Position numbers and translations under genes: made by a program. Shown here piece by piece: positions 16,653-51,760 of a DNA stretch of 64,000 nucleotides; position 1 is the stretch's first letter; each line of letters starts with the position of its first letter. The notes below the pieces were generated by a model. The model made no database searches, was not told the DNA's origin, and saw nothing but the letters and a program-made list of their open reading frames with translations. Source of the stretch: Halobaculum roseum (lineage in GTDB: Archaea > Halobacteriota > Halobacteria > Halobacteriales > Haloferacaceae); contig NZ_CP082286.1 in the NCBI RefSeq assembly GCF_019880245.1, positions 824,521 to 888,520 on the forward strand, in the 5' to 3' direction.

Positions 16653-17618
16653 TCACTCCTCGACCAGCGGGAACTGTGCGAGCCGCGCGGCCGCCATGCC
16701 GGTCAGCCCGCGCGCGGTGACGGAGTCGGACGACCGCTCGCGGTGGCCGACGACCATCCCGTCGAAGTCGGCGACGGGGACGAACCGCACCTCGGTGCCC
16801 TCGGGGCCGATGTCGAGGAGGCAGTACCCCTGCGGGAACGAGCACGTCGTCGGCATCATCAGCTCGCGGACCGACCCCTGCGTCGCCGCCGACGGCATGT
16901 GAAGGTGGCCGGTGAGCAGCAGCGGCACGTCGTGGCGTTCGAGCGTCCCGACGAACGGCTCGGGGTTATCCATCTCCGGCGGTACGAACATGTCGGGCTC
17001 GGCCAGGTTCCTGTGCTCGTGAACCTGCTCGGACATCGCCGGGAGGTTGTGGTGTGCGAGCACGAGCGGCGTCTCCGCCTCCGTGAGCAGCCCGTTCAGC
17101 TCGTCGAGCTGTTCCTCGGGAACGGTTCCGGCGTGCGAGTCGTAGAGCCATTCCTCGGTTCCCGCGGTGTTGACGCCGATCACGTCGATCCCACCGACGG
17201 CGGTGTGAAACGGAAACCCTTGCCCGTCGGGAGTGTACCGCTCGGCGAACTCGGCCATCGGGAGGTTCTCGTGGTCGTACCCCTCCTTGGGCACGTCGTG
17301 GTTGCCCGGGACAGAGTAGAATGGCGCCTCGAGGTCCGCGGCGATCTCGTCGAACCGGTCGAAGTTCCACGGCTCGCCGTCCTTCGTGATGTCGCCGACG
17401 CACAGCGTCGCGTCCACGTCGCGCTCGGCGATGTCGGCGACGGCGTTCGCGACGTGCGCCTCGGTGCGATCGAACAGCTTCGAGGTACCCGCCTCCTCGG
17501 TCGAGAGGTGTGGGTCGGCGATGACGGCGACGCGTGTCCGATCGTCGGCCTTCGGCCGGTCGAGCGCGGCCATCAACGAGCCCGCCGGGGACCCGGACCT
17601 GTCGAGCGGTATGACCAT
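16653..17618 (-). CDS. metallophosphoesterase (calcineurin-like)
   Basis: A dinuclear-metal phosphoesterase of 321 residues. All five family motifs are visible: VAVIADPHLS (DxH), CVGDITKDGEPWNF (GDxxxxG-like), VPGNHDVPKEGY (GNHD), LVLAHHNLP (H) and LLTGHLHMPS (GHxH). Substrates in this superfamily range from cyclic nucleotides to phosphoproteins; nothing here decides. The ATG at 17618 precedes MVIPLDRSGSPAG; an internal ATG at 17573 (MAALDRPKADD) is also possible. It is followed immediately by the PfkB kinase gene. Confidence 0.92.
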   Translation of the reverse strand: MVIPLDRSGSPAGSLMAALDRPKADDRTRVAVIADPHLSTEEAGTSKLFDRTEAHVANAVADIAERDVDATLCVGDITKDGEPWNFDRFDEIAADLEAPFYSVPGNHDVPKEGYDHENLPMAEFAERYTPDGQGFPFHTAVGGIDVIGVNTAGTEEWLYDSHAGTVPEEQLDELNGLLTEAETPLVLAHHNLPAMSEQVHEHRNLAEPDMFVPPEMDNPEPFVGTLERHDVPLLLTGHLHMPSAATQGSVRELMMPTTCSFPQGYCLLDIGPEGTEVRFVPVADFDGMVVGHRERSSDSVTARGLTGMAAARLAQFPLVEE

Positions 17619-17783
17619 ACGGTGGCCTCGGCCAGCCGTCTCAAAACGGTCCCGGTCCCGGTCGATCGTGCACGGTCGGCCGACCGTTGACGGGCGATCG
17701 ATCGCGTCCGACCGCCGGACGGTGATATATCATGGACGATACGTGGAAATGCAGATGTGTGAACTAGAGAGCGATCCGGAGGC

Positions 17784-17823
17784 GTATATATACACATAGG
17801 ACTGCAGATGGCAAGTTATTTGC
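17784..17823 (+). promoter_or_regulatory. promoter region of the peptide ABC operon
   Basis: Two AT-rich elements occur in the GC-rich background: GTATATATA at 17784-17792 and AGTTATTTGC at 17814-17823. The second, 30 bases before the ATG at 17848, would give a nearly leaderless transcript and favours that start over the ATG at 17839. Confidence 0.5.
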
Positions 17824-17847
17824 TGTCTGAACGGACGCATGTACCTG

Positions 17848-20001
17848 ATGTCCGAGGACACCACTCGGCGGCGCTTTCTCACCGCGGCAGGCTCGGGCGT
17901 GGCGGCGGCGCTCGCGGGCTGCTCCGGGAACCAGCCGGACGAACAGGCGACCGAGGCCGACACCGACACGCCGGAGTCGACGGCGACGGCGACCGCGACG
18001 CCGGAACCCGAACGGCAGTACACCGGCGGGACGCTCCAGTTGGCCTCCAACGGACCGGTCCAGACGCTCGACCCGATAAACGCGAAGGGCTCGGGCGCGG
18101 GATACAACCAGTACAACGGGACGCTCATGACGTTCGAGAACGGGGACCTGCCGCCGGTCGCCGGACTCGCGACCGACTACGAGGTCTCGGAGGACGGCCG
18201 CACGTACACCTTCCAGCTCCGGGAGGGCGTGCGCTTCCACAACGGCGACGAGCTGACGGCGCAGGACTTCGTCTACTCGTGGGAGCGGCTCGCGGGCGCC
18301 GAGGAGACCCGCAACGCCGACGACATCGTCGGCGACACGTTCGCCATCGAACACGAGAAGCAAAGCGACATGGACGGCGTCTCGGCGTACATCCCGGGGA
18401 CGCTCGCCGTCGAGGCGGTCGACGACTACACCTTCGAGTTCACGATGGCGACCGCGTTCACGGGAACGATGTCGCAGATCGCCAGCGGGACGTTCGCCCC
18501 GATCCCCGAGGGATCGGTCGCGTACCCGAAGGACTACGAGAGCCACGAGGGCGTGGACGGCCTCATGTGGGAGGGGGAGTACGAGTACAACGAGTACTTC
18601 TCGACGGACGGCGACGGGCCGTTCTTCGCCGGCGTCGGCCCGTTCCAGATCGACTCCTGGAGCAAGGGTGACGCGATCACCCTGTCGGCGTTCGAGGACT
18701 ACTACGGCGAGGGGCCGTACATCGACGAGATCGTCTACACCGTCATCGGCAACCAGCAAACGCGCTTCTCCCGGTTCAAGAACGGGAACCTCGACGTGCT
18801 GCTCAACGGAATGCCGACGGCGGCGTTCAACTCGGACCGCCGGAGCATCGACCGCGACCGCGGAACCTACCGGACGGGCACGTACGAGCTCGACAACGGC
18901 GAGACAGTCAACTACGGCGAGGCCCCCGCGCTCGACACCGACTACCTCGTGTTCAACTGCGCGCGGACCCCCAAGCCGGTCCGGCAGGCCATCGCGTACC
19001 TGATCAATCAGGAGCGGATCTCCCAGGACGTGTACAAGGGGCTCCAGCCCGCGGCGTACCACCTCACGCCGCCGGGCGCGTTCATGGCCCGCGAGGGCGA
19101 GAACCCCGGGGAGAACTACAACAAGCACTACCAGGACGGGCACCGGAACCAGATGGAGCAGTACGCCGACGGCTATCCCTACGGGGTCGGCGAGGCGCGG
19201 ATCGGCGAGGCCCAGCGCGTCATGGAGGAGGCCGGCTACGGCGAGGACGAGCGTGCGGAAGTCGAGTTCACGGTGTTCTCCGGCGACGGCGCCTGGGACT
19301 CGATCGCCCAGACGCTGCGCGACAAGGCGACGGCCGCCTACATCGACATCAACATCGTGAAGGCCGACTTCGGGACGATCATCGGCCAGGCGCTCGACGG
19401 GTCGATGGACATGTTCTCGCTGGGCGACGGGATGGAGTGGCCCGAGTCGGACAACTTCCTCCGATTCATCCCGCCGTACGACAATCCCAGCGGGATGTTC
19501 ACCCGGTGGACGTACCAGGTCGTCGCCGAGGAAGTGGACCTCGGCGGCGACGGCTCCGAGACCGTCCGCGAGAACGTCTACGCGGAACTCGACGGCGACT
19601 TCCCCGAGGACCACGTGAAGGTGAACACGGACGACGGTCAGGTCCGGGTCGCCATCGACGGCGTCGAGCCCGACGAGCTGGAGTCGGCGCTCGACGCGGC
19701 GGGGTACAGTCACGGCGGGGCCGAGTCGACCCAGGCGCCGTTCGACCCGCTCATGCCGGAGTCCGACCGCCGGTGGGACACGTACCTCGACAACCGCGGG
19801 CCCAGCGACGAGGCGGTTCGCGCTCGCGACGAGGTGTACTACTTCCAGGAGGAGGTCAACTGGGCGGCCGTCCAGGAGCTCCCGCTCGTGCACTCGATCA
19901 CTCAGCGGCTCTGGCAGGACCGGGTGAACGTCCGCATGGCCGGGACGATGGAGAATCAGACCTTCAACACGCTCACGCTCGAGGACCAGGACGGGAACTG
20001 A
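17848..20001 (+). CDS. dppA: ABC transporter substrate-binding lipoprotein, family 5 (peptide/nickel type)
   Basis: A 717-residue surface solute-binding protein. The N-terminus MSEDTTRRRFLTAAGSG is a Tat signal with a twin arginine, followed by lipobox ALAGC and a Thr/Ala/Glu linker. The mature part shows the family 5 pattern: TLDPINAKGSGAGYNQYNG, LREGVRFHNGDELTAQDFVYSWERL, and later KPVRQAIAYLINQERI. It is longer than bacterial DppA/OppA (about 540 residues) because of acidic inserts near residues 500-620. It heads an operon with two permeases and two ATPases. The ligand is a peptide or another class 5 substrate and cannot be told from sequence. Confidence 0.92.
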   Translation: MSEDTTRRRFLTAAGSGVAAALAGCSGNQPDEQATEADTDTPESTATATATPEPERQYTGGTLQLASNGPVQTLDPINAKGSGAGYNQYNGTLMTFENGDLPPVAGLATDYEVSEDGRTYTFQLREGVRFHNGDELTAQDFVYSWERLAGAEETRNADDIVGDTFAIEHEKQSDMDGVSAYIPGTLAVEAVDDYTFEFTMATAFTGTMSQIASGTFAPIPEGSVAYPKDYESHEGVDGLMWEGEYEYNEYFSTDGDGPFFAGVGPFQIDSWSKGDAITLSAFEDYYGEGPYIDEIVYTVIGNQQTRFSRFKNGNLDVLLNGMPTAAFNSDRRSIDRDRGTYRTGTYELDNGETVNYGEAPALDTDYLVFNCARTPKPVRQAIAYLINQERISQDVYKGLQPAAYHLTPPGAFMAREGENPGENYNKHYQDGHRNQMEQYADGYPYGVGEARIGEAQRVMEEAGYGEDERAEVEFTVFSGDGAWDSIAQTLRDKATAAYIDINIVKADFGTIIGQALDGSMDMFSLGDGMEWPESDNFLRFIPPYDNPSGMFTRWTYQVVAEEVDLGGDGSETVRENVYAELDGDFPEDHVKVNTDDGQVRVAIDGVEPDELESALDAAGYSHGGAESTQAPFDPLMPESDRRWDTYLDNRGPSDEAVRARDEVYYFQEEVNWAAVQELPLVHSITQRLWQDRVNVRMAGTMENQTFNTLTLEDQDGN

Positions 20002-20089
20002 CCCGACCGAGGGGCGGCCGCCTCACGTTTCAACAGTGTTTTTGTAATCCGATCGAACCAACCAACGAACTCAGAGACTCCCGCTACAC

Positions 20090-21136
20090 ATGAATCGGCT
20101 GAAATACATCGTCAAACGCGTCCTCATGTCCGTTCCCGTCCTGTGGTTGGGGACCAGCATGACCTGGTTCATCATCTACCAGGGCCCCGTGGATCCGGCC
20201 GCCAACCTCCTGAGCGGAAACGAGCGCCTCACGGAGGCGAAATACGAGGCGGCACGGACGGAACTGGGCCTCGATCAACCGCCCGTACAGCACTACGTCG
20301 ACTGGATGTGGAACCTGTTCACCCTCGATCTCGGACAGACCTGGCTCGTGTACACCGGGTCGAACGTCGGCGCGCTGGTGCTGGATTTCCTCCCGCGCAC
20401 CGTCTGGCTCGGCTTCTGGTCGGTGCTCATCGCCATCTGCATCGGCGTTCCCCTGGGCTTTTACGCGGGGATCCGGTCGAACACGGTCGCCGACTACATC
20501 GCCTCCGTCTCGGGGATCGTCTGGCGCGCGATGCCGAACTTCTGGCTCGCGGTGATCCTCCTGGCGCTGCTCGTGGGGTCGGAGCCGCTCTTCGGCTTCG
20601 ACTGGGACACCTTCCTGGTCGACCTTCCCTCCGGCGTGACCGGAAATCCTGGCCTGTCGTACATGGCCGGCGACCCCCTCGCGCTGTTCACACAGCCGGG
20701 GGAGACGCTCGCGGCGATCAAGAAGATCCTCCCGGCCGCGCTCGTGTTGGGCTCGGCGTCGATGGGCAACGAGATGCGTATCGGCCGGACCGCGGTCCTC
20801 GAGACGAAAAACGAGCAGTACGTCGACTTCGCGCGCGCCCGCGGCGTCTCCGGCCGCGCGATCGTCTGGAAGCACGTCTTCCGGAACGCGCTCGTCCCGC
20901 TGGTCCCCGTGATCACCACGGAGGCGTTCCTCCTCATCGGCGGGAGCGTCCTCGTCGAGTCGGTGTTCGGGATCAACGGGATGGGGAAGCTGTTCTTCGA
21001 CGCCGCGATCCAGGGCGACCTCCCGCTGGTCGGGTCGCTCATGTTCGTGTTCATCGTGCTCATGCTCGTGATCAACATCGCACAGGACATCCTCTACACC
21101 CTGATCGACCCCCGCGTCGGCTACGACGGGGCCTGA
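20090..21136 (+). CDS. dppB: ABC transporter permease, DppB type
   Basis: A 348-residue inner permease with six predicted spans. It has the N-terminal MNRLKYIVKRVLMSVPVLWLGTSMTWF helix typical of DppB/OppB. The EAA loop that contacts the ATPase reads EYVDFARARGVSGRAIVWKHVFRNALVP, roughly residues 242-270. It lies 89 bases after the binding-protein gene and 4 bases before the second permease gene, so it is in one operon. Confidence 0.93.
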   Translation: MNRLKYIVKRVLMSVPVLWLGTSMTWFIIYQGPVDPAANLLSGNERLTEAKYEAARTELGLDQPPVQHYVDWMWNLFTLDLGQTWLVYTGSNVGALVLDFLPRTVWLGFWSVLIAICIGVPLGFYAGIRSNTVADYIASVSGIVWRAMPNFWLAVILLALLVGSEPLFGFDWDTFLVDLPSGVTGNPGLSYMAGDPLALFTQPGETLAAIKKILPAALVLGSASMGNEMRIGRTAVLETKNEQYVDFARARGVSGRAIVWKHVFRNALVPLVPVITTEAFLLIGGSVLVESVFGINGMGKLFFDAAIQGDLPLVGSLMFVFIVLMLVINIAQDILYTLIDPRVGYDGA

Positions 21137-21140
21137 CTCC

Positions 21141-22595
21141 ATGGCTACACAATTCAACACGTACACCGAAGGCGAGGCCGCACCGCTTCGAGACAGAGTC
21201 ATGGCGAACCCCCGCCCGGCAGCGGTGTGGGTCGGCGTCGCCGCCGTGTTGTTCGGACTGCAGGCCGGCGCCGTCGTGCAGTTCCTCGCGGCGCTGCTCG
21301 TGGACGCCGTCGCCGCGTTGCCGGGTATCACCGTTCCCGCCGGCGTGGCCGCCCTCGACCGGGCGGCCGACGCCGTCCCGACGCTGCTGTCGCGCGAGAC
21401 GATCCCGAACCGAGGGTACTACGACGGCGGCGGCTACGTCGGCACGTTCCTCGGCCTGTCGCCGGATCTCGCGTGGCTCCTCCGGGTCACGCTCATCTAC
21501 GCGTACTCGTTTGCCGCGCTGGCGTGGGTGTGGGTCGGCTACGAGCGGTACCGGACCCACTACCGGATCGCCGACTGGACGCCCCGCGACGACGTGATCG
21601 ACCGGTTCCGCGGCCACAAGTGGGGCCTGTTCGGCGTCGTCGTCGTCGCGATGTTCTTCGTGATGGTCCTGTTCGCCCCGGCGCTGTCGCCGACGACGAC
21701 GGCGGCGAACCTGGAGAACCCCTACCAACACGAGGTCACCTACTGGGCCGACGGCGAAACCCGGACCGTGACCGTCGGCCAGGCGAACCTGGGATCGCAG
21801 TCGCAGGGGACGCCACAGGAGAACGTCGGCCCGATGCAGTACGACGACTACGGCCGGATCCACCCGTTCGGGACCCTCCCCAGCGGGAAGGACTTGTTTA
21901 CCTTCATCGCGCACGGGTCGCGGATCTCGCTGATCATCGGACTGGTGTCCGTGGGCCTGTCGGTGTCGATCGCGGTCGTCCTCGCGCTGATGACGGCCTA
22001 CTACAAGGGGAAGATCGACCTCGGCGCGGTGCTGGTCTCGGACGCGGTGATGGGGATGCCGCAGTTGCTCCTGCTCATCATGCTGTCGGTGATCCTCTCG
22101 GGGACGTGGGTCGGGAAGATCTATTCGGGGGCGTTCGTGCTCGCGTTGATCTTCGCGGGCACCGGCTGGCCGGCGATGTGGCGCTCGTTCCGCGGTCCGG
22201 CGTTGCAGGTGTCGAACCGCGAGTGGGTCGACGCCGCGAAGTCGTTCGGACAGACCCCCGGGACGATCATGCGAAAGCACATGCTCCCGTACATCACCGG
22301 CTACGTGCTCGTGTACGGCTCGATGACGCTGGGCGGGGCGATCATCGCCATCGCCGGGCTCTCGTTCCTCGGGCTGGGCGTCAACCCGCCCACGCCCGAG
22401 TGGGGCCGGGCGGTCAACGCCGGCCAGGACTACGTGACGACCGCCTCCTGGCACATCTCGCTCATCCCCGGCATCCTGATCACGCTCGTCGTGACCGGGT
22501 TCAACGCCCTCGGCGACGGCGTGCGCGACGCGATCGATCCCGAGTCCGACGCGGAGGATCAGGGCGGCGCCAGCGGCCGCGGGGGTGGTGCCTGA
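21141..22595 (+). CDS. dppC: ABC transporter permease, DppC type, with N-terminal extension
   Basis: The second permease of the system, 484 residues against about 300 for bacterial DppC. The extra N-terminal 150 residues contain two or three additional hydrophobic spans (about residues 28-58 and 108-130) before the conserved RFRGHKWGLFGVVVVAMFFVMVL helix. The EAA loop reads REWVDAAKSFGQTPGTIMRKHMLP. An extracellular loop of about 80 residues follows the first core helix (HEVTYWADGETRTVTVGQ). Its TGA overlaps the next gene's ATG. Confidence 0.92.
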   Translation: MATQFNTYTEGEAAPLRDRVMANPRPAAVWVGVAAVLFGLQAGAVVQFLAALLVDAVAALPGITVPAGVAALDRAADAVPTLLSRETIPNRGYYDGGGYVGTFLGLSPDLAWLLRVTLIYAYSFAALAWVWVGYERYRTHYRIADWTPRDDVIDRFRGHKWGLFGVVVVAMFFVMVLFAPALSPTTTAANLENPYQHEVTYWADGETRTVTVGQANLGSQSQGTPQENVGPMQYDDYGRIHPFGTLPSGKDLFTFIAHGSRISLIIGLVSVGLSVSIAVVLALMTAYYKGKIDLGAVLVSDAVMGMPQLLLLIMLSVILSGTWVGKIYSGAFVLALIFAGTGWPAMWRSFRGPALQVSNREWVDAAKSFGQTPGTIMRKHMLPYITGYVLVYGSMTLGGAIIAIAGLSFLGLGVNPPTPEWGRAVNAGQDYVTTASWHISLIPGILITLVVTGFNALGDGVRDAIDPESDAEDQGGASGRGGGA

Positions 22596-23719
22596 TGCGA
22601 CCGAACCCGGTCGACGGCGCCGACGAGCCTCCGACCGGCGACGGCCTCAGAACGGACGGCGGCGACGCGCTCCTCGAGGTGGAGGGGCTGACGACCGTCT
22701 TCCACACCGACAAGGAGACGATCCGCGCGGTCGACGACGTCTCCTTCGCCGTCGAGGAGGGCGAGACGCTCGGGATCGTCGGCGAGTCCGGCTCGGGGAA
22801 GTCCGTCACGGCCCGTTCGATCCTCGGGTTGGTCGACTCGCCCGGAGCCATCGAGTCCGGCTCGATCCGGTTCCGCGGCGACGAGTTGACCGACGGGAAC
22901 TGGGACACCCACCGCGGCGACATCTCCATCGTGTTTCAGGACCCGAGCAACTCGCTCAACCCGGTGTACACCGTCGGCAACCAGATCCGCGAGACGCTGC
23001 GGATCCACCAGGGGCTCACTGGCGCGGCCGCCCGCGAGGAGGCCGTCCGGCTGCTGGAGTCGGTGGGGATCCCCGACGCCCGCCGGCGGGTCACGGAGTA
23101 CCCGCATCAGTTCTCCGGCGGAATGAAACAGCGGGCGGTCATCGCCGTCGCGCTCGCGTGTGACCCGGACCTGCTCGTCTGTGACGAGCCGACGACCGCC
23201 CTCGACGTGACCATTCAGGCACAGATACTGGAGCTGCTCGACGAACTGCAGGACGAGGAGGATCTCGCGATCGTGTTCATCACCCACGACATGGGCGTCA
23301 TCGAGGAGACCGCCGACCGCGTGAACGTCATGTACGCCGGCGAGATGGTTGAGTCCGCGCCGGTCGACGAGCTGTTCGACTCCCCGCAGCACCCGTACAC
23401 GCGGGGGCTACTGGCGTCGATCCCGGGGCGGACGGTCAGCGGGGACCGCCTGCCGACGATCGGCGGGGAGGTGCCCACGCCGACGACGGAGCCGACCGAC
23501 TGCCGGTTCGCCGACCGGTGCCCGCAGGCGTTCGACGCCTGCGAACGCGTTCACCCGGAACCGGTCCGGGTCGGCCCCGACCACACCGCCGCGTGTCTGC
23601 TCCACGAGGAGGCGTACGACCACGATCCGAACGCGGGTGCCCCCGGGACGGAACGGGGTGTCGACGGCGCCGACGACGCCGGCGGCGACGCCGTCGCCGA
23701 CGGGGGTGATCGCGAATGA
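22595..23719 (+). CDS. dppD: ABC transporter ATP-binding protein, DppD type
   Basis: A cytosolic ATPase subunit of 374 residues. Walker A is GESGSGKSV, the Q-loop region is [11 protein letters not shown], the ABC signature is FSGGMKQR, Walker B is [12 protein letters not shown] and the H-loop is FITHDMG. The C-terminal oligopeptide-transport domain has the [14 protein letters not shown] cysteine cluster that in related proteins binds a [4Fe-4S] cluster or zinc. An acidic disordered tail follows. The ATG overlaps the dppC stop (ATGA), indicating translational coupling. Confidence 0.95.
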
Positions 23720-25188
23720 GTCGCGGCGACTCGCCGGCGGGTTCGGACGCGGACCGGGCGAGCGCGTCGACTGCCGGGCGGGCGACAGAACCGGCGGCGG
23801 CAGCCGGAAGCGCCGACGCCGCCGACACCGACGCCGCCGACCCCGACGAGACGCTCGTCGAGGTTCGGAACCTGAAGAAGTACTACGACGACGACGGGTT
23901 CCTCGGCGACGACCCGGTCAAGGCCGTCGACGGCGTCTCCTTCGACATCCGCCACGGCGAGACGCTCGGGCTCGTCGGCGAGTCCGGCTGCGGGAAGACG
24001 ACGCTCGGCCGGACGATCCTCGGCCTCGAGGACGCGACCGACGGCGAGGTCGTCTCGGACGGCCGCAACGTGGCGCGCCTCTCGGGGAAGCAGCTCCGCG
24101 AGTGGCAGCGGGACGCACAGATGGTGTTCCAGGACCCCGAGGCGAGCCTGAACGACCGGATGACGGTCGGCGAGATCGTCCGGGAGCCGCTGGACGCCCA
24201 CGACTGGGGGACCCCCGACGAGCGGAAACGACGCGTGTTCGAGCTGCTCGATCTCGTCGGGCTCAACGAGGAGCACTATTACCGCTACCCCCACCAGTTC
24301 TCGGGCGGGCAGCGCCAGCGCGTCGGGATCGCCCGGTCGCTCGCGCTCGAACCCGAGTTCATCGTGCTCGACGAGCCGGTGTCCGCCCTCGACGTGAGCG
24401 TCCAGGCGCGGGTGATCAACCTCCTGGAGGACCTTCAGGAGGACCTCGGACTGACGTACCTGTTCATCGCGCACGACCTCTCGGTCGTCCGCCACATCGC
24501 CGACCGCGTCGCCGTGATGTACCTCGGCGACATCGTCGAGCTGGGCGACACCGAGGCGGTGTACACCGACCCGGCGCACCCGTACACCCGGTCGCTGCTG
24601 TCGGCGATCCCCGGCAGCCACACGGGCACCGACCGCCGGCGCGTGACGCTGCGCGGGACGCCCCCGTCGCCGCGGGACCCCCCGCAGGGGTGTCGCTTCG
24701 CCACCCGCTGCCCGGCGAAGGTCCGTCCCGAGGAGTTCGACGACCTCTCGGGGACCGCCTGGGAGCGCCTCGACGCGCTCCACACGGTGTTCCGCGAGCG
24801 GGCGAACAGCGAGACGGGAGTGACGGAACTGCTGAAGCAGCGCCTCGGGCTCGCGGCGGCCGCCGACGACATCGACGAGGTGGTCGCCGACCTGTTCGGC
24901 TGGCATCCCGACGACGGCGCCGTGCCCGAGGACGTCGGCCCGGACGAGCCGCTCCTGTCGGGCGACGCCCGCGCGGCCGTCGAGGACGCCGTCGACGCCG
25001 CCCGCCGGGGCGACGACGCGGCGGCGGCGACGCTGCTCACGGAGACGTTCGGCTCCGTCTGCGACGAGCAGCGCCCCGAACGGCACGTCGTCGACGACGA
25101 CGGCCGCGTCAGCGCGTGCGTCCGCCACGACGCGGAGTACGAGTCGCCGGGTCCCGTCATGGCGCGTCGGTACGGCTCCGACGACTGA
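23716..25188 (+). CDS. dppF: ABC transporter ATP-binding protein, DppF type, with long C-terminal insertion
   Basis: The second ATPase subunit, 490 residues. An acidic Ala-rich leader of about 40 residues precedes the nucleotide-binding domain. Walker A is GESGCGKTT, the signature [15 protein letters not shown], Walker [13 protein letters not shown] and the H-loop IAHDLSV. The C-terminal module has [12 protein letters not shown] but the remaining cysteines (SVCDEQRP and SACVRHD) come only after an insert of about 130 residues, longer than in bacterial DppF. It starts within the stop of dppD (ATGA overlap) and ends the operon. Confidence 0.94.
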
Positions 25189-25500
25189 GGAAAGCAGAAG
25201 AAAATAGACAATTTAAGTTTTCTATTCTATTGGTTAGGTTGGTTCAGTTCAATTCTTCGCTGAGTACGGCGTCAGCTTCGTATATGAGATCTGGTCTGAC
25301 CGTTATGAGGTACTATCAGACTGGGAACCAGAATACGTGAGTTGATCAAGTTTAGAACTCGATTTTTAAATCACGCATCCCCAACAGATTCTGGAATTTT
25401 GGAACTGTTGCCCCCGATTAAATATAGCGATATGAGGTGTATTGGAGGTGGTGTGGTGGTTTCTTTGGAACGTAGCATACTAATAATAGTTATTCGGTTG
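25189..25500. other. AT-rich gene-free spacer, left edge of the recombinase island
   Basis: No convincing gene on either strand. GC content drops sharply right after the dppF stop. The stretch holds a probable T-rich terminator at its left end and a perfect 5-bp inverted repeat (AATAA-TAG-TTATT, 25482-25494) just beyond the stop of the minus-strand recombinase gene. I saw no tRNA fragment and no repeat matching the right edge of the island. Confidence 0.6.
25199..25231 (+). terminator. candidate terminator of the dpp operon
   Basis: About ten bases after the dppF stop an AGAAAA/TTTTCT inverted repeat surrounds an AT-rich loop and runs into a T-rich stretch (TTTTCTATTCTATT), as archaeal terminators do. 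Confidence 0.45.
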
Positions 25501-26544
25501 TCATTTTAGTACAAATACATGATTGAGGTACGGGCCACGAACTAGTTCATTCCAGTTGTGGGTATATCGATCCATCACATCGCCAACGTCGCCGCGAATG
25601 TACTTTACGACGTATGCGTCGCCCAGACGGTTCCGCATCTCAGTCGTGAAGAAGTGTCGAAAGTAATGCGGGGTGACGTTCTCTTCTGCACCACCGCCTA
25701 CTGCATACCAACCTCGCTCGGCTGCTAACTCTCGGACATACCCACGTACCATGTCACTTGTCAGTCGTTCTCCGTAGCTTCGACTGATACTAGTGAACAG
25801 AGGCTCTGCATCCCCCACATCAGGGCGTATGGCCAGCCACGCCACAAGCGCTTTGTGAAGTTCCTGGTCGATAGGAATCGTCGTGTCGCGGTGTCGCTTG
25901 TTCCCTTCACTCCGTTCCTCGCCGTTCACTACGTCGCCGATGCTAATTTCGCTGTCCACATACAGGGTCTTCGGCCTGTCACTGATTGCTGCGCGTGGTT
26001 CAATACCATAATAACTCTGAACGCCATTGTGATCGAGATGCACGTCCCGCAGGTCAAGATTGCAGAGTTCACCTACGCGCATTCCCGTTTTAACCAGTGT
26101 CAAAACGACCGCTTTGCGGAGCGGATTTTGAATTTCGGCGATGAATTCACCCATTTGAGTGACGCCAAGACTCCTGCGAGTCGGTGTGGAGTCGCCACGC
26201 TCGCTCATTTCTTCCATTACGACTACCATAGGGTTCTCTTCAAATACGCCGAGTTGCGCCATATATCCATAGAACCGATTAACATGGACGGCCTTCGTCC
26301 GGATCGACCCCGGTGCGTACTCACGGTCACGGAGTGACTGAATCCACTGAAGACAGTCCCGTCGGTCGACATCATCGAGACTTGCCGCTCCTCGCTCTTC
26401 GGTGAACCTCTCAAACTGGCGAAGCGTCGTCCGGTAATCACTGACCGTGCTTGCTGCCCGGCCGTATAATTCCATTTCGTCGAGAAAATCACGAACAGGA
26501 TTGACGCTGGATGTAGCAGAATCTGAATGCGTACTTCTAGCCAT
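25501..26544 (-). CDS. tyrosine recombinase/integrase, copy 1 of a divergent pair
   Basis: A 347-residue site-specific recombinase. The N-terminal core-binding SAM-like domain (residues 15-110: DFLDEMELYGRAASTVSDYR, then NRFYGYMAQLGVFEENPM) precedes a catalytic domain. Catalytic residues are Arg in TGMRVGELCNLDL, His and Arg in TPHYFRHFFTTEMR, and the nucleophile Tyr in DRYTHNW. The usual LGH histidine is replaced in the stretch IRGDVGD, as in copy 2. Its ATG overlaps by one base the stop of the small gene upstream. Copy 2 at 27695-28759 is clearly paralogous. GC is lower than in the flanks, suggesting acquisition. Confidence 0.92.
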   Translation of the reverse strand: MARSTHSDSATSSVNPVRDFLDEMELYGRAASTVSDYRTTLRQFERFTEERGAASLDDVDRRDCLQWIQSLRDREYAPGSIRTKAVHVNRFYGYMAQLGVFEENPMVVVMEEMSERGDSTPTRRSLGVTQMGEFIAEIQNPLRKAVVLTLVKTGMRVGELCNLDLRDVHLDHNGVQSYYGIEPRAAISDRPKTLYVDSEISIGDVVNGEERSEGNKRHRDTTIPIDQELHKALVAWLAIRPDVGDAEPLFTSISRSYGERLTSDMVRGYVRELAAERGWYAVGGGAEENVTPHYFRHFFTTEMRNRLGDAYVVKYIRGDVGDVMDRYTHNWNELVRGPYLNHVFVLK

Positions 26545-26918
26545 TAATTATCCCTCTTTGCCACAATAAGTCCGTCATCATTCACACTATATTCAATTGT
26601 TCCCGTTTCGTTCAGCTGTTCAATTGATTCTCTGACCAGATCTTCGATCTCCCCTGTGACTTCTTCGATCACTTCACCACTGCGCGCACCGTCAGCAGCG
26701 TTGACCGCATCCAAGATCCGTTCGTCGATGAAATCTTGGAGAGTACCGTCTTCGGCGCCATCACCCTGGGGGTCGAGACCGAACTCTCGGCGTCCAGCGT
26801 TGATCATTGCACGAAGATAGGCAGCACGAGAGTTGAAGCCCATTTTTTCGGCTTCCTTGTCGAAGCGATCGAGATCTTCTTTCGGGACTGTCACATTAAG
26901 AGACTTGTCGGAGGCCAT
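26544..26918 (-). CDS. RHH/winged-helix-like partner protein of recombinase copy 1
   Basis: A 124-residue acidic protein. Residues 5-45 (LNVTVPKEDLDRFDKEAEKM, then NSRAAYLRAMINAGRREFGL) look like a ribbon-helix-helix strand-helix-helix and resemble DUF5805. Residues 75-124 (VIEEVTGEIEDLVRESIEQL, then GTIEYSVNDDGLIVAK) look like a small winged helix. DNA binding is inferred. It is the first gene of a two-gene unit with the recombinase (1-base overlap), and the same arrangement recurs divergently at 27231-28759. It may be an autoregulator or a recombination directionality factor. Confidence 0.8.
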   Translation of the reverse strand: MASDKSLNVTVPKEDLDRFDKEAEKMGFNSRAAYLRAMINAGRREFGLDPQGDGAEDGTLQDFIDERILDAVNAADGARSGEVIEEVTGEIEDLVRESIEQLNETGTIEYSVNDDGLIVAKRDN

Positions 26919-26957
26919 CTAGTAGCGGAAGGTAGGGAGATGTGGTGTTAATGCTTT

Positions 26958-26990
26958 TGGACGGCTTATAGCCCTAATCTGTTTCTAAGG
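26958..26990. repeat. palindrome-bearing repeat, copy A
   Basis: Begins TGGACGGCTTATAGCCCTAA and ends TTTCTAAGG. It aligns with copy B with a few substitutions and single-base gaps. The core GGCT-TAT-AGCC is an inverted repeat with a 3-base spacer. It lies 40 bases before the start of the minus-strand module, a suitable place for an operator. Confidence 0.75.
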
Positions 26991-27030
26991 GTGGTAAAAA
27001 CGCCCGTCGCCTGTGGTAGTTTCATTGTTA

Positions 27031-27062
27031 TGGACGGCTTAGTAGCCTAATACGTTTTCAGG
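27031..27062. repeat. palindrome-bearing repeat, copy B
   Basis: Begins TGGACGGCTTAGTAGCCTAA and ends TTTTCAGG. It is a direct repeat of copy A, 73 bases away, with the inverted repeat GGCT-TAGT-AGCC (4-base spacer instead of 3). Confidence 0.75.
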
Positions 27063-27230
27063 CACCTACAAATCCGCATTGAACAATCGTAATCTCGCTC
27101 GCACTTTCGCTTTGAGATGAATGCCACAAATGACAATTGTTGTATATTTAGTGAGGTGCAGTATTGAGAATCGGACACTACTACTGGTTATTGCATCAGA
27201 TTGATGTAGCTGTGTTGAGCCATATTGTGT

Positions 27231-27698
27231 ATGTGTGAGGAGAAGGAAGACGTTGACACAGAACGAGTTGCCATTACTGCAAGGGTACCCGCATATCAAA
27301 AAGAGGAGTGGGTAAAGGAAGCCGACAAACTCGATATGTCACAGTCCGAGTACCTTCGAACTATGGTTCAGGCCGGTCGTCATGACCTCGGTATCGCCGA
27401 GGATATCGGTCCAGTGATACACGCAGAAGACTCAACTGGGTCGGATCAAGAGGAACAGATAAACGACTCGCAATACCAAGATACCTCTACCGAGCCATTC
27501 AATCTCAGGAGTGACGGACTCAAGGCCCACCTCCTCGAGGAGATAGAGCGAGAAGAGATTCTCTCATTTGAGGACTTAGTTAGGACGATCGCCGGTGACA
27601 TCGAAGAGCAGGTTGATGATGCCCTGGCCGACCTCCAGTCGAGTGACCGTGTCAGGTACAACGGTCGCGAAGGGGGTTACACAATGGTAGAGCGATGA
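27231..27698 (+). CDS. RHH/winged-helix-like partner protein of recombinase copy 2
   Basis: A 155-residue protein from the ATG at 27231 (a TTG at 27225 would add two residues). It has the same layout as the copy-1 partner. Residues 10-55 (VAITARVPAYQKEEWVKEAD, then MSQSEYLRTMVQAGRHDLGI) resemble DUF5805/RHH. An acidic linker follows. Residues 100-155 (FEDLVRTIAGDIEEQVDDAL, then VRYNGREGGYTMVER) resemble a winged helix. The two partners are clearly homologous but diverged. Its TGA overlaps the recombinase ATG (ATGA), so the pair is translationally coupled. Confidence 0.8.
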   Translation: MCEEKEDVDTERVAITARVPAYQKEEWVKEADKLDMSQSEYLRTMVQAGRHDLGIAEDIGPVIHAEDSTGSDQEEQINDSQYQDTSTEPFNLRSDGLKAHLLEEIEREEILSFEDLVRTIAGDIEEQVDDALADLQSSDRVRYNGREGGYTMVER

Positions 27699-28759
27699 GT
27701 ACTGGTGGCCGTTCCGAAGACAGCGCACAGGACGACCCTATTGGTTATTTCCTTGAGGATATGAATTTACAAGGCAAGAGCGAGCGGACTCGTGAGGAGT
27801 ATCGCCGGGTACTCCGGCGATTCGAGTCGTTTCTACATGACCCAGGACGTGGCCCTAGTGGGAAAGTGACCGGGCCTAGTGAAGCGTCCGAACGCGATTC
27901 CATGGCATTCATTTCCGAACTTCGCCAAAGCGCCGATATCGCTGATTCTACGATGGCGACATACGCCGCCTACCTCCACCGTTTCTACGCCTACATGAAC
28001 GAGATAGGCACGTTCGAGGCTAATCCAATGGCGTTCGTGACGGAGGAACTTGACGAACGGATTGACACCGATCCAATCCGGCGCGAGATCTCGATCTCCC
28101 GTATGCGTGAATTTGTTGCGGAGATCACTCACCCACTTGACCGGGCGCTTGTCGTCACGTTGGCAAAAACCGGGATTCGAGTTGGTGAACTCTGCAATCT
28201 CGACCTACGGGATCTTAAACTCAGCTGCACCGTTCCAGGGTTTAACCTCGGTGACCGTTCACAACTCGATGGTCGCCCAGACTCACTGTATATTTCCAGT
28301 GAACCAACTGCTGGAGAGTGCTACAACGGCGAGAAACGTACCGCCTCTAACGGGCGTGAGCGGGCGACGGTGATTCCTGTAGACCAAGAACTGGGAAAAG
28401 CACTCATCACGTGGCTTGCGATCCGTCCAGATGCTGTTTCACCAGCGGACCCCCTGTTCGTCGGCACCGGCAGCGGCTGGGGAGAGCGGCTCACCCCCGA
28501 GCAGGTCGGCCGGATAGTCCGTGAGCACGCCGAGCGGGCCGGATGGTACGAGCCTGGCGCCGGGATGGCCGAAAACGTCACGCCGCACTACTTCCGGCAC
28601 TTCTTCACCACGCACCTCCGGGACCAGATCGGTGATCGGGGCATTGTAAAACACCTCCGCGGCGACGTGGCAGACGACATCATCGACACCTACACCCACA
28701 ACTGGGGCGACAACGTCCGAGAGACGTACGAGCGCCACATCTACTCGCTGTTCGAGTAG
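27695..28759 (+). CDS. tyrosine recombinase/integrase, copy 2 of a divergent pair
   Basis: A 354-residue recombinase paralogous to copy 1: catalytic Arg in TGIRVGELCNLDL, His/Arg in TPHYFRHFFTTHLR, nucleophile Tyr in DTYTHNW, and the same LRGDVAD stretch in place of LGH. By eye about half the catalytic-domain residues match copy 1. Odd composition: the first two thirds are moderately AT-rich like the rest of the island, but from about 28440 to the stop the gene has the high GC and codon use of the host chromosome. That suggests a recombination joint inside the gene. Confidence 0.92.
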   Translation: MSTGGRSEDSAQDDPIGYFLEDMNLQGKSERTREEYRRVLRRFESFLHDPGRGPSGKVTGPSEASERDSMAFISELRQSADIADSTMATYAAYLHRFYAYMNEIGTFEANPMAFVTEELDERIDTDPIRREISISRMREFVAEITHPLDRALVVTLAKTGIRVGELCNLDLRDLKLSCTVPGFNLGDRSQLDGRPDSLYISSEPTAGECYNGEKRTASNGRERATVIPVDQELGKALITWLAIRPDAVSPADPLFVGTGSGWGERLTPEQVGRIVREHAERAGWYEPGAGMAENVTPHYFRHFFTTHLRDQIGDRGIVKHLRGDVADDIIDTYTHNWGDNVRETYERHIYSLFE

Positions 28760-29079
28760 CCGGACGGCACGCTCGGACCGTCCTCGCAGCCGAAGAGTCC
28801 TGCTTCTCTCTGCTGATCTCGGGAGAGAGAGCGACATCGACAACAAACTATACACTCGTGTACCGTGGAGACCGCGGTTCGAGACAGTCTGATAAACTGT
28901 ATTTCGATATATAGAATACATCACCCGATCCCGGACCCGCGATCGTGGGGTCGGCCGCGGATACGAACCCTGAGGCGGGCGCTCGCGAGTGTTGCGGGCG
29001 GAACTGTCCGATGACGACATCCGGCGAAGAGGGGAGGTGTTCGCTTCACGAACCGGTCGCCCGGCCGAGCGCGTCGCGT
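28760..29079. other. gene-free spacer at the right edge of the recombinase island
   Basis: No convincing gene. It contains an AT-rich patch (28840-28925) with small inverted repeats: TACAC-TC-GTGTA at 28851-28862, ACAGT/ACTGT at 28884-28900, and a 21-base near-palindrome at 28899-28919 centred on CGATATAT. These may act as terminators or mark the island boundary. No match to the left edge was found by eye. The last 130 bases are GC-rich and unremarkable. Confidence 0.5.
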
Positions 29080-29490
29080 TCAGCCGGCGGCCACGTCCGC
29101 GACGGCCGCCACGAGGACGGTGAAGAACGTCGCGACCAGCACCGCCTTCGTCGTCTCGACGGCCGAGCGCGCGCCCTCGAGCGGGAGCCCGTACAGGAGG
29201 ACGATCAGCAGGGAGACGCCGACCGCGATGGCGACCGTCGAGAGGAACCGCAGGGGGAGCCCGGCCACGGTTCGTCCGGCCGAGGGGTCGCGGCGCTCGA
29301 CGGCGGTGTAGAGGGCGAGGTAGGTGAGCGTCAGCGCGATCGCGACCGCGGCGACCGCTCGCCGGAGGCTCATCCCCGCGGCGACCTCCCAGACGTCGCC
29401 GGGGATCAACAGTCCACCCGCGATCAGCAACGCGCCGGTCAGCTGTTGGATGAGGTCGGCCCGATCGAAGCGTTCCGGACGGTTCGCCAC
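29080..29490 (-). CDS. DUF2391-family integral membrane protein
   Basis: A 136-residue protein read from the GTG at 29490 (MANRPERFDRADLIQQLTG). It has four hydrophobic spans: QLTGALLIAGGLLIPGDVW, RRAVAAVAIALTLTYLALY, STVAIAVGVSLLIVLLYGL and VLVATFFTVLVAAVADVAAG. The pattern, including the ALP/GLP turn and a C-terminal AAVADV, matches the small archaeal/bacterial DUF2391 membrane family. Function unknown. A GTG at 29535 would add 15 residues but these are Arg/Cys-rich and less likely. Confidence 0.7.
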   Translation of the reverse strand: MANRPERFDRADLIQQLTGALLIAGGLLIPGDVWEVAAGMSLRRAVAAVAIALTLTYLALYTAVERRDPSAGRTVAGLPLRFLSTVAIAVGVSLLIVLLYGLPLEGARSAVETTKAVLVATFFTVLVAAVADVAAG

Positions 29491-29783
29491 ACAGTCGGGT
29501 ACACGGCCGAGCGCAAGTAGGCATCGGGGAGACACCGAGAGCGCGACCGCTCGGAGTCGAGGGTCACCGAGCGGTTCGCTCCTCGATCAGCGACGGTTCG
29601 TCGTTGGGGGGCGAGCTCACGCGCATCGAGACCGGGCAGTACCGCATGCGTCGCCAGCGAGGAACGGGAGTCGGACGGGGCGCAACAGAACCCTTTAGCC
29701 TCGGTGCGCCCCCACATCGACCGACACGACGGCCGCGGAATCGGGGCGACGGCTCGTCCCGCCGCCCGCGGTCGCGCACAACC

Positions 29784-30566
29784 ATGCGCATCAAAAACAG
29801 CTTCATTCCGGTCGAGGGGGTCGGCGCGACGACCGAGCGCCGCATGTGGGAGAACGACATCCGCGAGTGGGACGAGTTCCGGCAGGAGCGCGCGCCGGGC
29901 GTGGGTGCGACGACCGCCTCGCGCATCGAGTCGTTCATCGACGAGGCGACCGAGCGCCTCGACGACCGCGACGCGCCCTTCTTCGACCGGGCGTTCCCCT
30001 CGGGCGAGCGCTGGCGGCTGTACGAGGACTTCCGCGACGGCGCGTGCTTCTTCGACATCGAGACGACCGGCCTCTCTCACGAGCGCGACCGGGTCACGAC
30101 CGTCTCGTTCCACCGCGACGGCGAGACGACGACGCTCGTGCAGGGGCGGGACCTGTCGGCGGCGACGCTGCGCGAGCAGTTCCGCGAGGCGGACCTGCTG
30201 GTGACGTTCAACGGGACGCGCTTCGACGTGCCGTTCCTGGAGACCTCCTTCGGGATGGAGATCGACACGCCCCATCTCGATCTCATGTACCCGTGCCGGA
30301 CGCTCGGGCTGACGGGGGGCCTGAAACCGATCGAGAACGAGCTCGGGATCGACCGCGACGGCCCGGACATCACCGGCCGCGACGCGGTTCGGCTGTGGCA
30401 CGAGTACGAGCGCGGCGACGAACGGGCGCTGGAGCGGCTGGTCTCGTACAACCGCGACGACACGGTGAACCTGCGGACGCTCGCCGACGAGGTCGCCGGG
30501 CGGCTCCACCGCGAGACGGTCCCCGACGGCGACGACCCGATCGGAACGACGTTGGGTCGACGGTAA
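29784..30566 (+). CDS. RNase H-like (YprB-type) 3'-5' exonuclease domain protein
   Basis: A 260-residue protein. The N-terminal 80 residues (MRIKNSFIPVEGVGATTERR) resemble the region that precedes the exonuclease in archaeal YprB-like proteins. The exonuclease core has the DEDD pattern: FFDIETTGL (Exo I, Asp and Glu), LVTFNGTRFDVPFLE (Exo II, Asp) and LVSYNRDDTVNLRTLADE (Exo III, with the final Asp). Single-strand DNA or RNA exonuclease activity is expected. It stands alone, just right of the recombinase island. Confidence 0.85.
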   Translation: MRIKNSFIPVEGVGATTERRMWENDIREWDEFRQERAPGVGATTASRIESFIDEATERLDDRDAPFFDRAFPSGERWRLYEDFRDGACFFDIETTGLSHERDRVTTVSFHRDGETTTLVQGRDLSAATLREQFREADLLVTFNGTRFDVPFLETSFGMEIDTPHLDLMYPCRTLGLTGGLKPIENELGIDRDGPDITGRDAVRLWHEYERGDERALERLVSYNRDDTVNLRTLADEVAGRLHRETVPDGDDPIGTTLGRR

Positions 30567-49840: not shown

Positions 49841-51760
49841 TTACTGGTCAGCAGTTCGTGCTTTAATAAACAGGAGGACAGCTGCAAGGCTCAACGGTAC
49901 ACCGATCACCAGATCGAACGGCGAGAGACTCGACGCGAACTCGTAGAAGAGGTTCCGTACGCGGTCGGTCGTGAGATCGGCGAAGATATCCGGTTCCTGT
50001 GCCGCAGGCGGTTCCGTCTGTGATGTCTCCGTCGGTATCGACAGAAGGGTGATCGACCGCGTAGCAAGCGTATAGGACTCGCTCGCATCCGTAACGAGCA
50101 GTTTGACCTGAAGCTCCTCGGATACAACCGGGTCCTCCAAGGTTCCCTCGGTGACAGTTATCTCATCCGCAGTATCGGCCGTTTCGAGTCCGGTCCCACC
50201 ATCGGGCCCATACGGCTGAAACCGGACAGTAACACGACCATCGTCGTTGTCATCGGAGACGACAGCCGCAACGGTTGTCGACCGTGATTCGATCGACAGC
50301 GTGGCCGACTCAAGCCGCTGCTGTTCCCCAGACGGTATCGTGATGGCGAACTCAAACGTTCCGCGAGCATCGCCGCTGGTGTTGGTCGTCCCGTCGGCGA
50401 AGTTCGGCGTCGGGCCGAACACACTGGCGTTCGGTTTCGGTGGGTTCTGTGCTGTCAGGACGTAGGGATCGAGCCAAGACGCAGTGTCTTCGCCCGCGAG
50501 ATCGACGATGATTCCGCGGAACTCCGTGTAGTTGAGACCCCCTTGCCCGCTGTGTTGGTTAACCCGATACATCACGTCGTGTATCGTCGCCTCGCCATCA
50601 GTTGCCTCCCGTAGCTTCACGTCCAAGGCGAACAACACCCGTGAACCTTTCTCGTAACTAGTCCGTCGGTCGTAGGTGTCTACTTCGCCGAGGGTGCTGT
50701 CTTCGTGGTAGTCCCCCTGTGGCCACTTGGTCTCGGGATCGGTTTTGTGTAAGAACGTTGCAGGCCGCCATTCGAGCTGGCCGTTAACAGGTTCGAAATA
50801 CGACCCGTAGTAGGTGGCGCTGCCCTCGGTGAACCACGCCATATCTCGGTTATAATATGTCATCTCATTGATGTGTGCGGTCTCGTGAATATAGATCGAG
50901 AGGGGAGATCCCGCATGTACCACTGCGCTTGCACTCGATGCCCCTCCGGCTGCGATCTGCCCTTCGAGAACGAAGACGGAGACGTCCCGATGAGGGTCGC
51001 CTTCAATTGCGCGTTCGGTTGCCGCAAGGGCTGTAATTGCTTTTTCTGGCGAAACGGCCATGTCGACCCGATCAGGCACGAACAGGGAGATCTCCTTGCC
51101 ATCCGCGCGCTCGGTGTACACGGTGTATTCGCCGGTGACAAATTCCGAGCCAGCGACAGTCCCCTCGCCGTGGACCCGAGCGGTCGTATCCAGGTAGAAC
51201 CCGACGGGCTCCTCGTACACCGAGTCAACGAACCTCCCCTCTGGGGGATCTCCACGCTGGATGACTCCCGAGGGAGACGGGATCGTGACACGGTGCATCC
51301 CGGCGTTTGACTCGTCGGGAAGCGTATGTTCGACCGTGATCGAGGGCGTTGAGGTTGTGGTATCCCACGTGAATTCTTGGCCCTCCTCGAACCCGGTCGT
51401 CTCGACCACGGAGTAACTGTCAATATATTTGATACTTCTGATTCCGAACTGAACGGTGTCGCTTGGAAGGTCGAACGTGTACGTGAACTGTACGGTATCC
51501 GTTCCATTGACACGTTCGATGTCGACTCTGGTGGGTATCACCCGTTCATCGGGGAGGGAGCCGGACACCTGTGGGTTCCCTGACTCGATTTGATCTCCGC
51601 TTGCGGCGCCGAAGTCGTCAGTGGTGTTCGAAGTCGTGGTCTCGGCGGGGGTGGAGGATGTCGGCCCGGATGCACCAGCAACGACAGGTGCCAGCGCCAG
51701 TGTCCCGATCACGAGACAGGCTCCGATGATAGCGAAGGTAGATCGGTTTCGTCGACTCAT
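49841..51760 (-). CDS. membrane-anchored extracellular HEXXH metalloprotease-like protein
   Basis: A 639-residue surface protein. Residues 1-30 are a signal peptide (STFAIIGACLVIGTLALAPV). A Thr/Ser-rich linker and beta-rich region follow. Around residue 294 lies IYIHETAHINEMTYYNRDMA, whose HETAH is an HEXXH zinc motif. It is followed by WFTEGSATYYGSYFE, where the Glu in TEGSA suits a third ligand of gluzincins (M1/M61-like). The C-terminal third has beta-sandwich character. The last 25 residues (DLVIGVPLSLAAVLLFIKA) form a membrane anchor. GC and codon use are lower than in the neighbours, suggesting transfer. The substrate is unknown. Confidence 0.85.
   Translation of the reverse strand: MSRRNRSTFAIIGACLVIGTLALAPVVAGASGPTSSTPAETTTSNTTDDFGAASGDQIESGNPQVSGSLPDERVIPTRVDIERVNGTDTVQFTYTFDLPSDTVQFGIRSIKYIDSYSVVETTGFEEGQEFTWDTTTSTPSITVEHTLPDESNAGMHRVTIPSPSGVIQRGDPPEGRFVDSVYEEPVGFYLDTTARVHGEGTVAGSEFVTGEYTVYTERADGKEISLFVPDRVDMAVSPEKAITALAATERAIEGDPHRDVSVFVLEGQIAAGGASSASAVVHAGSPLSIYIHETAHINEMTYYNRDMAWFTEGSATYYGSYFEPVNGQLEWRPATFLHKTDPETKWPQGDYHEDSTLGEVDTYDRRTSYEKGSRVLFALDVKLREATDGEATIHDVMYRVNQHSGQGGLNYTEFRGIIVDLAGEDTASWLDPYVLTAQNPPKPNASVFGPTPNFADGTTNTSGDARGTFEFAITIPSGEQQRLESATLSIESRSTTVAAVVSDDNDDGRVTVRFQPYGPDGGTGLETADTADEITVTEGTLEDPVVSEELQVKLLVTDASESYTLATRSITLLSIPTETSQTEPPAAQEPDIFADLTTDRVRNLFYEFASSLSPFDLVIGVPLSLAAVLLFIKARTADQ

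Follow-up and report, generated by a model that had tools for sequence, protein, structure and literature searches.

Divergent modules and the join within intB

Within the analysed window, a 64,000-nucleotide stretch of the Halobaculum roseum genome (contig NZ_CP082286.1), two gene pairs are read outward from a shared control region, each coupling a small ribbon-helix-helix (RHH)-like protein to a tyrosine recombinase of the Xer type. On the reverse strand lie intA (25501–26544; Pfam PF00589, 3.4e-15), a member of a rare subfamily called type A here, and its partner rhhA (26544–26918; RHH_1, 3.5e-6, and DUF5805, 8e-9). On the forward strand lie rhhB (27231–27698, with an alternative TTG start at 27225; DUF5805, 5.6e-19), the likely RHH and DUF5805 partner of the core haloarchaeal recombinase, and that recombinase gene itself, intB (27695–28759). 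All four are open frames, and DUF5805 is found in both small proteins, with RHH_1 matched in RhhA. Both recombinases match the Pfam Phage_integrase domain (3e-15 and 1e-12), each has a SAM-like domain in addition, and the Arg, HxxR and Tyr residues are present in both. IntA and IntB share 47% identity and RhhA and RhhB 27%, and 312 bp separate the starts of the two rhh genes. The first-pass annotation of this DNA had described two such homologous, divergent modules with complete catalytic residues and a 312-base gap free of cargo and tRNA, and the description stands: no cargo genes occur in the island and no tRNA genes were found at it. The same annotation held that this is not a normal integrated element, which agrees with the lack of flanking att or dif repeats and of element genes.

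The composition of the island sets it apart from its surroundings, with a GC content of 0.50–0.59 against 0.67–0.76 and a GC content at third codon positions (GC3) of 0.50–0.59 against 0.89–0.95 in the flanking genes. Compared with the sister species (G269), the nearest relative, DNA identity is 95.8% over 17617–25188, stops exactly at the stop codon at 25188 and is 94.6% from 29642 on. Inside intB, identity is 66% up to ~28574, 92% beyond it and 100% from 28662, and the GC3 of the gene rises from 0.59 in its 5′ part to 0.94 in its 3′ part. Because both shifts fall within one gene, intB is a chimera of foreign and native DNA, with the junction in the most conserved part of the gene, immediately ahead of the catalytic tyrosine; that residue belongs to the native part (from ~28662). 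On these breakpoints, the foreign segment replacing the native core locus extends from 25189 to 28661, with its right end between ~28574 and 28662. The claim that both units are AT-richer than their surroundings thus needs trimming: it fits the island at large but not the last ~100 bp of intB, which are host DNA, and the foreign part does not run on to 28925 as had been proposed.

Comparison within the genus points the same way: the native rhhB-intB locus was for the most part overwritten by foreign DNA. Congeners have IntB proteins that are 81–92% identical to one another, and the IntB of this genome is 71–74% identical to all of them; for RhhB the corresponding values are mostly 68–84% among congeners and 49–56% to the protein studied here. 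The GC contents of intB and rhhB (0.58 and 0.52) compare with about 0.66–0.73 in the congeners. A tree of the foreign part of intB places the sequence from this genome on a long branch, basal in the genus clade, and type A in a separate clade (100/100). The donor would therefore be either an unsampled related lineage or a replicon that had earlier picked up the gene from such a lineage. Elsewhere in the genome, the native 5′ half of intB was not found.

Fast evolution of the native gene in situ was considered as well and rejected, since the flanks match the sister species at ~95% identity, the breakpoint is sharp and GC3 jumps.

The left native flank is an oligopeptide/dipeptide ABC transporter ATPase gene (23716–25188, forward strand; Pfam ABC_tran and oligo_HPY). 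The right one (29080–30566) holds a hypothetical gene (29080–29535, reverse strand) and an RNase_H_2 gene (~29607–30566, forward strand), in synteny with congeners. The ABC-transporter and RNase_H_2 neighbours recur at the IntB locus across the genus, with the left one missing or degraded in some genomes. Immediately upstream of the core module the sequence varies between congeners (G269, G305, G358 and G210; L052–L055) and looks like an insertion hotspot; G305 has an AT-rich insert of ~2.4 kb there, with two genes, one membrane-protein-like and the other serine-protease-like.

A universal core module and a rare paralogue

The two modules have very different distributions. When 392 genomes of the order were searched with IntA, 378 yielded a homologue, among them all 345 of good quality; there is nearly always one per genome, at ~50% identity to IntA. 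An IntB orthologue is present in all 11 genomes of the genus, as the sole copy in each of the ten congeners, and a DUF5805-RHH gene precedes the core recombinase in 40 of 40 loci inspected from several families. Haloferax volcanii is among the carriers of DUF5805, a domain essentially restricted to this order. Searches with IntA and IntB found no relative on viral contigs or in a phage collection, and a plasmid collection yielded relatives on two megareplicons only. IntB is thus the syntenic orthologue of the chromosomal, single-copy Xer-type recombinase of haloarchaea. Because the B module is universal, syntenic and nearly absent from plasmid, phage and viral collections, it is the resident module and not half of an element, which tells against the earlier suggestion that the island is the two ends of an element that lost its middle.

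A few loci depart from this pattern. One core recombinase frame contains a single internal TGA (G356:C1:1256102-1256953), which may mark an inactivated gene or a sequencing error, and second DUF5805 genes at G115:C1:523537 and G006:C2:535298 may belong to further paralogous modules.

Type A is rare, with proteins 64–69% identical to IntA in nine other genomes (10 of 392 in the order, this one included). The present genome is the only carrier among 170 of its own family; five of the 13 genomes of one genus (g44, probably Halobacterium) and four of the eight of another (g58) also have type A. There it occurs as a lone rhhA-intA pair, away from the core copy and with no evident cargo, and a contig scan with IntA gave one full-length type-A relative, from Halobacterium sp. 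KA-4. Among the genomes searched, the divergent A and B pair is unique. Since both module types stand alone elsewhere, the pair is a unique neighbour arrangement gained by horizontal replacement. This is the outcome that the first-pass annotation had named as refuting a coupled system, namely homologues of each module occurring singly at unrelated sites: the core module stands alone across the order and type A alone in the nine other genomes.

Glycine-cleavage genes are found close to four of the five Halobacterium type-A copies and to one of those in g58 (L067, L058, L062–L064), a neighbourhood that spans two genera of different families and may be a shared old locus or the result of transfer together with the neighbours. 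A third relative, 39% identical, lies on a separate contig of a Halobacterium-genus genome (G080:C4:7629-8660, L080) and is possibly replicon-borne.

Upstream sites and kinship with Xer systems

Both module types have short inverted repeats upstream of their rhh genes. At core modules this is a palindrome of the form TAA-N6-TTA or TTA-N6-TAA, most often GATAA-N6-TTATC. Of 44 loci sampled, nearly all outside the genus studied here, 40 have it 54–94 bp upstream of rhh. Beyond the inner bases, the arms are more complementary than when they are reshuffled between genomes (0 of 2000 permutations), an optimistic figure since the genomes are related. The exact palindrome occurs in 19 of 20 largely complete genomes, mostly once, with a copy at the core locus, and a weak second copy lies 63 bp upstream of it. 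The form GATAA-N6-TTATC upstream of the core rhh (L089–L128) is near-unique and is found in most families.

The paired sites of type A are of a related kind. The site proximal to rhhA (26955–26977, reverse strand) reads TTA-GGGCTA-TAA-GCCGTCCAAAA and the distal one (27028–27050, reverse strand), 73 bp away, reads TTA-GGCTAC-TAA-GCCGTCCATAA. They make up a direct repeat in the rhhA control region (26948–26984 and 27021–27057), which the first-pass annotation had missed, that is, two copies of TTA-N6-TAA-GCCGTCC, for which no chance matches are expected in the window and which are the only good copies of the type-A site in the whole genome. Two TTA-N6-TAA elements exactly 73 bp apart precede rhhA in 10 of 10 type-A modules. 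IntA and RhhA most likely form an accessory Xer-like system acting at these paired sites or regulated from them.

Two functions come into question for the palindromes, and as a candidate the core palindrome may serve as a dif site, as an operator or as both. Its architecture of inverted arms, 6-bp spacer, near single copy and one linked recombinase resembles that of dif sites such as difSL and difH (PMC2731167, PMC8371274). The other reading is that the palindromes are purely operators through which the RHH-DUF5805 proteins regulate their own genes, with the recombinases acting elsewhere. That the sites lie where a promoter is expected suits an operator, as do the second elements at 63 or 73 bp, since the weak copy beside the core palindrome and the fixed type-A pair resemble paired operators. 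The extended inverted repeat, the invariant 6-bp spacer and the inner ends, usually ATAA and TTAT as in dif, argue the other way, together with essentially one copy per genome and the precedent of linkage between dif and a single xer gene in XerS/difSL and XerH/difH (PMC2731167). This reading concerns the sites only and is compatible with the replacement history; we give it a little short of an even chance. No haloarchaeal dif site was found in the literature searched.

Similarity to known Xer systems is clearest for archaeal XerA and dif of Pyrococcus abyssi and Thermoplasma acidophilum (PMC2958812, PMC8371274), where the recombinase is likewise chromosomal, typically one per genome and built of a SAM-like and a catalytic domain, and where the site is a 6-bp-spaced inverted repeat with about one copy per genome. 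The best match among solved structures is T. acidophilum XerA (5hxy). Unlike that system, the haloarchaeal module includes an RHH and DUF5805 partner gene and has its palindrome next to the recombinase gene instead of at some distance from it. Where XerA has an LGH motif, 65 of 65 haloarchaeal proteins have RGD(V) (window positions 28652–28690 and the intA counterpart). XerS/difSL and XerH/difH also combine a single recombinase with a linked dif-like site in a self-contained module (PMC2731167), but they are bacterial and of other subfamilies, and the RHH-DUF5805 partner is specific to haloarchaea, where the palindrome is a candidate recombination site. A co-occurring pair like XerC and XerD is not what the genomes hold, with type A in so few of them.

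SNJ2-type integrases come with small accessory proteins. These haloarchaeal enzymes are also tyrosine recombinases with SAM-like and Phage_integrase domains (reviewed in PMC8371274), but the island has no viral genes, tRNA or att pair, and its relatives are absent from the phage and viral collections and occur on only the two plasmid megareplicons.

A scan for defence systems (PADLOC) gave no match, and sigma-70 promoter and terminator scans, whose models are not apt for archaea, stayed at background level. Structure prediction for RhhB from a three-sequence alignment was poor (mean predicted local distance difference test, pLDDT, 55), and its profile search against solved structures returned weak matches only (cullin-3, 0.04; MCM4, 3.3), FtsK-gamma not being seen.

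Origin of the pair and its significance

We consider it probable that the native core Xer module was replaced by a divergent foreign allele carrying an extra type-A module, and that IntB keeps its housekeeping job. The divergent, AT-rich version that took the place of the native module would have come from a relative of the genus that has not been sampled. Its right join would have arisen through homologous recombination within the 3′ end of intB, which is highly conserved, the left join, just after the ABC-transporter gene, being illegitimate or otherwise untraceable. The same foreign DNA would have brought the second, paralogous module. IntB would then continue to resolve dimers of the circular chromosome together with RhhB, its DNA-binding partner, the site of IntB being recombined and not only bound, and IntA with RhhA would form an extra Xer-like system with sites of its own.

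Several observations weigh against parts of this interpretation. The donor was not found, and the pair is absent from every plasmid, phage and other genome searched; type A and the foreign B may also have come in one event or in two. The palindrome is degenerate in this genus: congeners carry GAATTA-N6-TAGGAC in the corresponding position, which is conserved but less symmetrical, and in an alignment with ten congeners the control region of module B (27167–27206, forward strand) holds a degenerate counterpart of that genus site (27167–27188) followed by a conserved TTGCATCAGATTGATG (27191–27206). Its position in a promoter region means that it could be only an operator. Further, the enzyme differs from archaeal XerA at the sixth catalytic position, where all 65 proteins have Asp in place of the His or Trp of XerA, and the 220-bit cut-off of the NCBIfam XerA model (NF040815) was not reached (119.7 and 115.4). 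An Xer-like role appears compatible with both the Asp and the sub-threshold scores.

An alternative history, which we regard as unlikely, has a small mobile element or AT-rich plasmid with two Xer-type modules integrating at the core locus, in the manner of an integrative mobile element exploiting Xer recombination (IMEX), and then losing the displaced native half and its cargo. Both modules are indeed low in GC3 and GC, unlike the core modules of congeners, the right junction lies within the recombinase gene itself, and the variable stretch upstream, with its insert in G305, is hotspot-like. Foreign DNA at a Xer/dif-like locus is also what an IMEX such as Legionella LME-1 with XerL presents (PMC9765430), but here there are no flanking dif copies and part of the xer gene has itself given way to foreign DNA. 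No flanking direct repeats of site-specific integration were found, nor any plasmid or phage relative of the pair, and the absence of the native 5′ half is explained more simply by plain allelic replacement.

Considerably less probable is that the two modules are one unit, with diverged recombinases that, like XerC and XerD, act together at a composite site within the control region they share, as in the earlier suggestion of a dimeric system. The modules are adjacent, divergent, intact and similarly AT-rich, and two type-A sites lie in the region between them; yet both of those sites belong to A and are conserved upstream of lone type-A modules, the pairing recurs in no other genome searched, and core modules throughout the order do without a type-A partner in nearly every case. 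A DNA-inversion or excision switch, which had also been proposed, can be all but dismissed: the two control-region repeats, 73 bp apart, are direct, not inverted, lie on one side, upstream of rhhA, and bracket no segment between the modules, and their exact spacing of ~7 helical turns in all type-A modules fits paired binding sites and not excision ends. The long inverted repeats at the island reflect the homology between the coding sequences of the two modules, and the remainder are short matches.

Elsewhere in the window, a second AT-richer stretch (49841–51760, reverse strand; GC 0.57–0.59) encodes a predicted secreted protein of 639 amino acids with a HETAH motif, metallopeptidase-like in character.

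The replacement of the core module shows that a divergent foreign allele can take over even at a housekeeping Xer locus. The pairing itself is not a new kind of system; of wider interest are the haloarchaeal Xer module and the palindrome that goes with it. A 2020 review of H. volcanii notes that it is still to be settled whether its 12 xerC/D-like genes play a part in replication termination (PMC7776575). The comparison made here singles out one universal gene, a lineage-confined DUF5805 partner that H. volcanii also has, and a near-unique adjoining palindrome, and so makes the termination question testable. Tentatively, and at less than even likelihood, haloarchaeal chromosome-dimer resolution may depend on a three-part module of GATAA-N6-TTATC or its lineage variants, an RHH-DUF5805 protein and an RGDV-type Xer recombinase, which in this genome was overwritten, with a type-A module and paired sites added. 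If so, the island would be a natural experiment in Xer/dif replacement, and the palindrome beside the universal gene may be the long-missing haloarchaeal recombination site, or a site of autoregulation.

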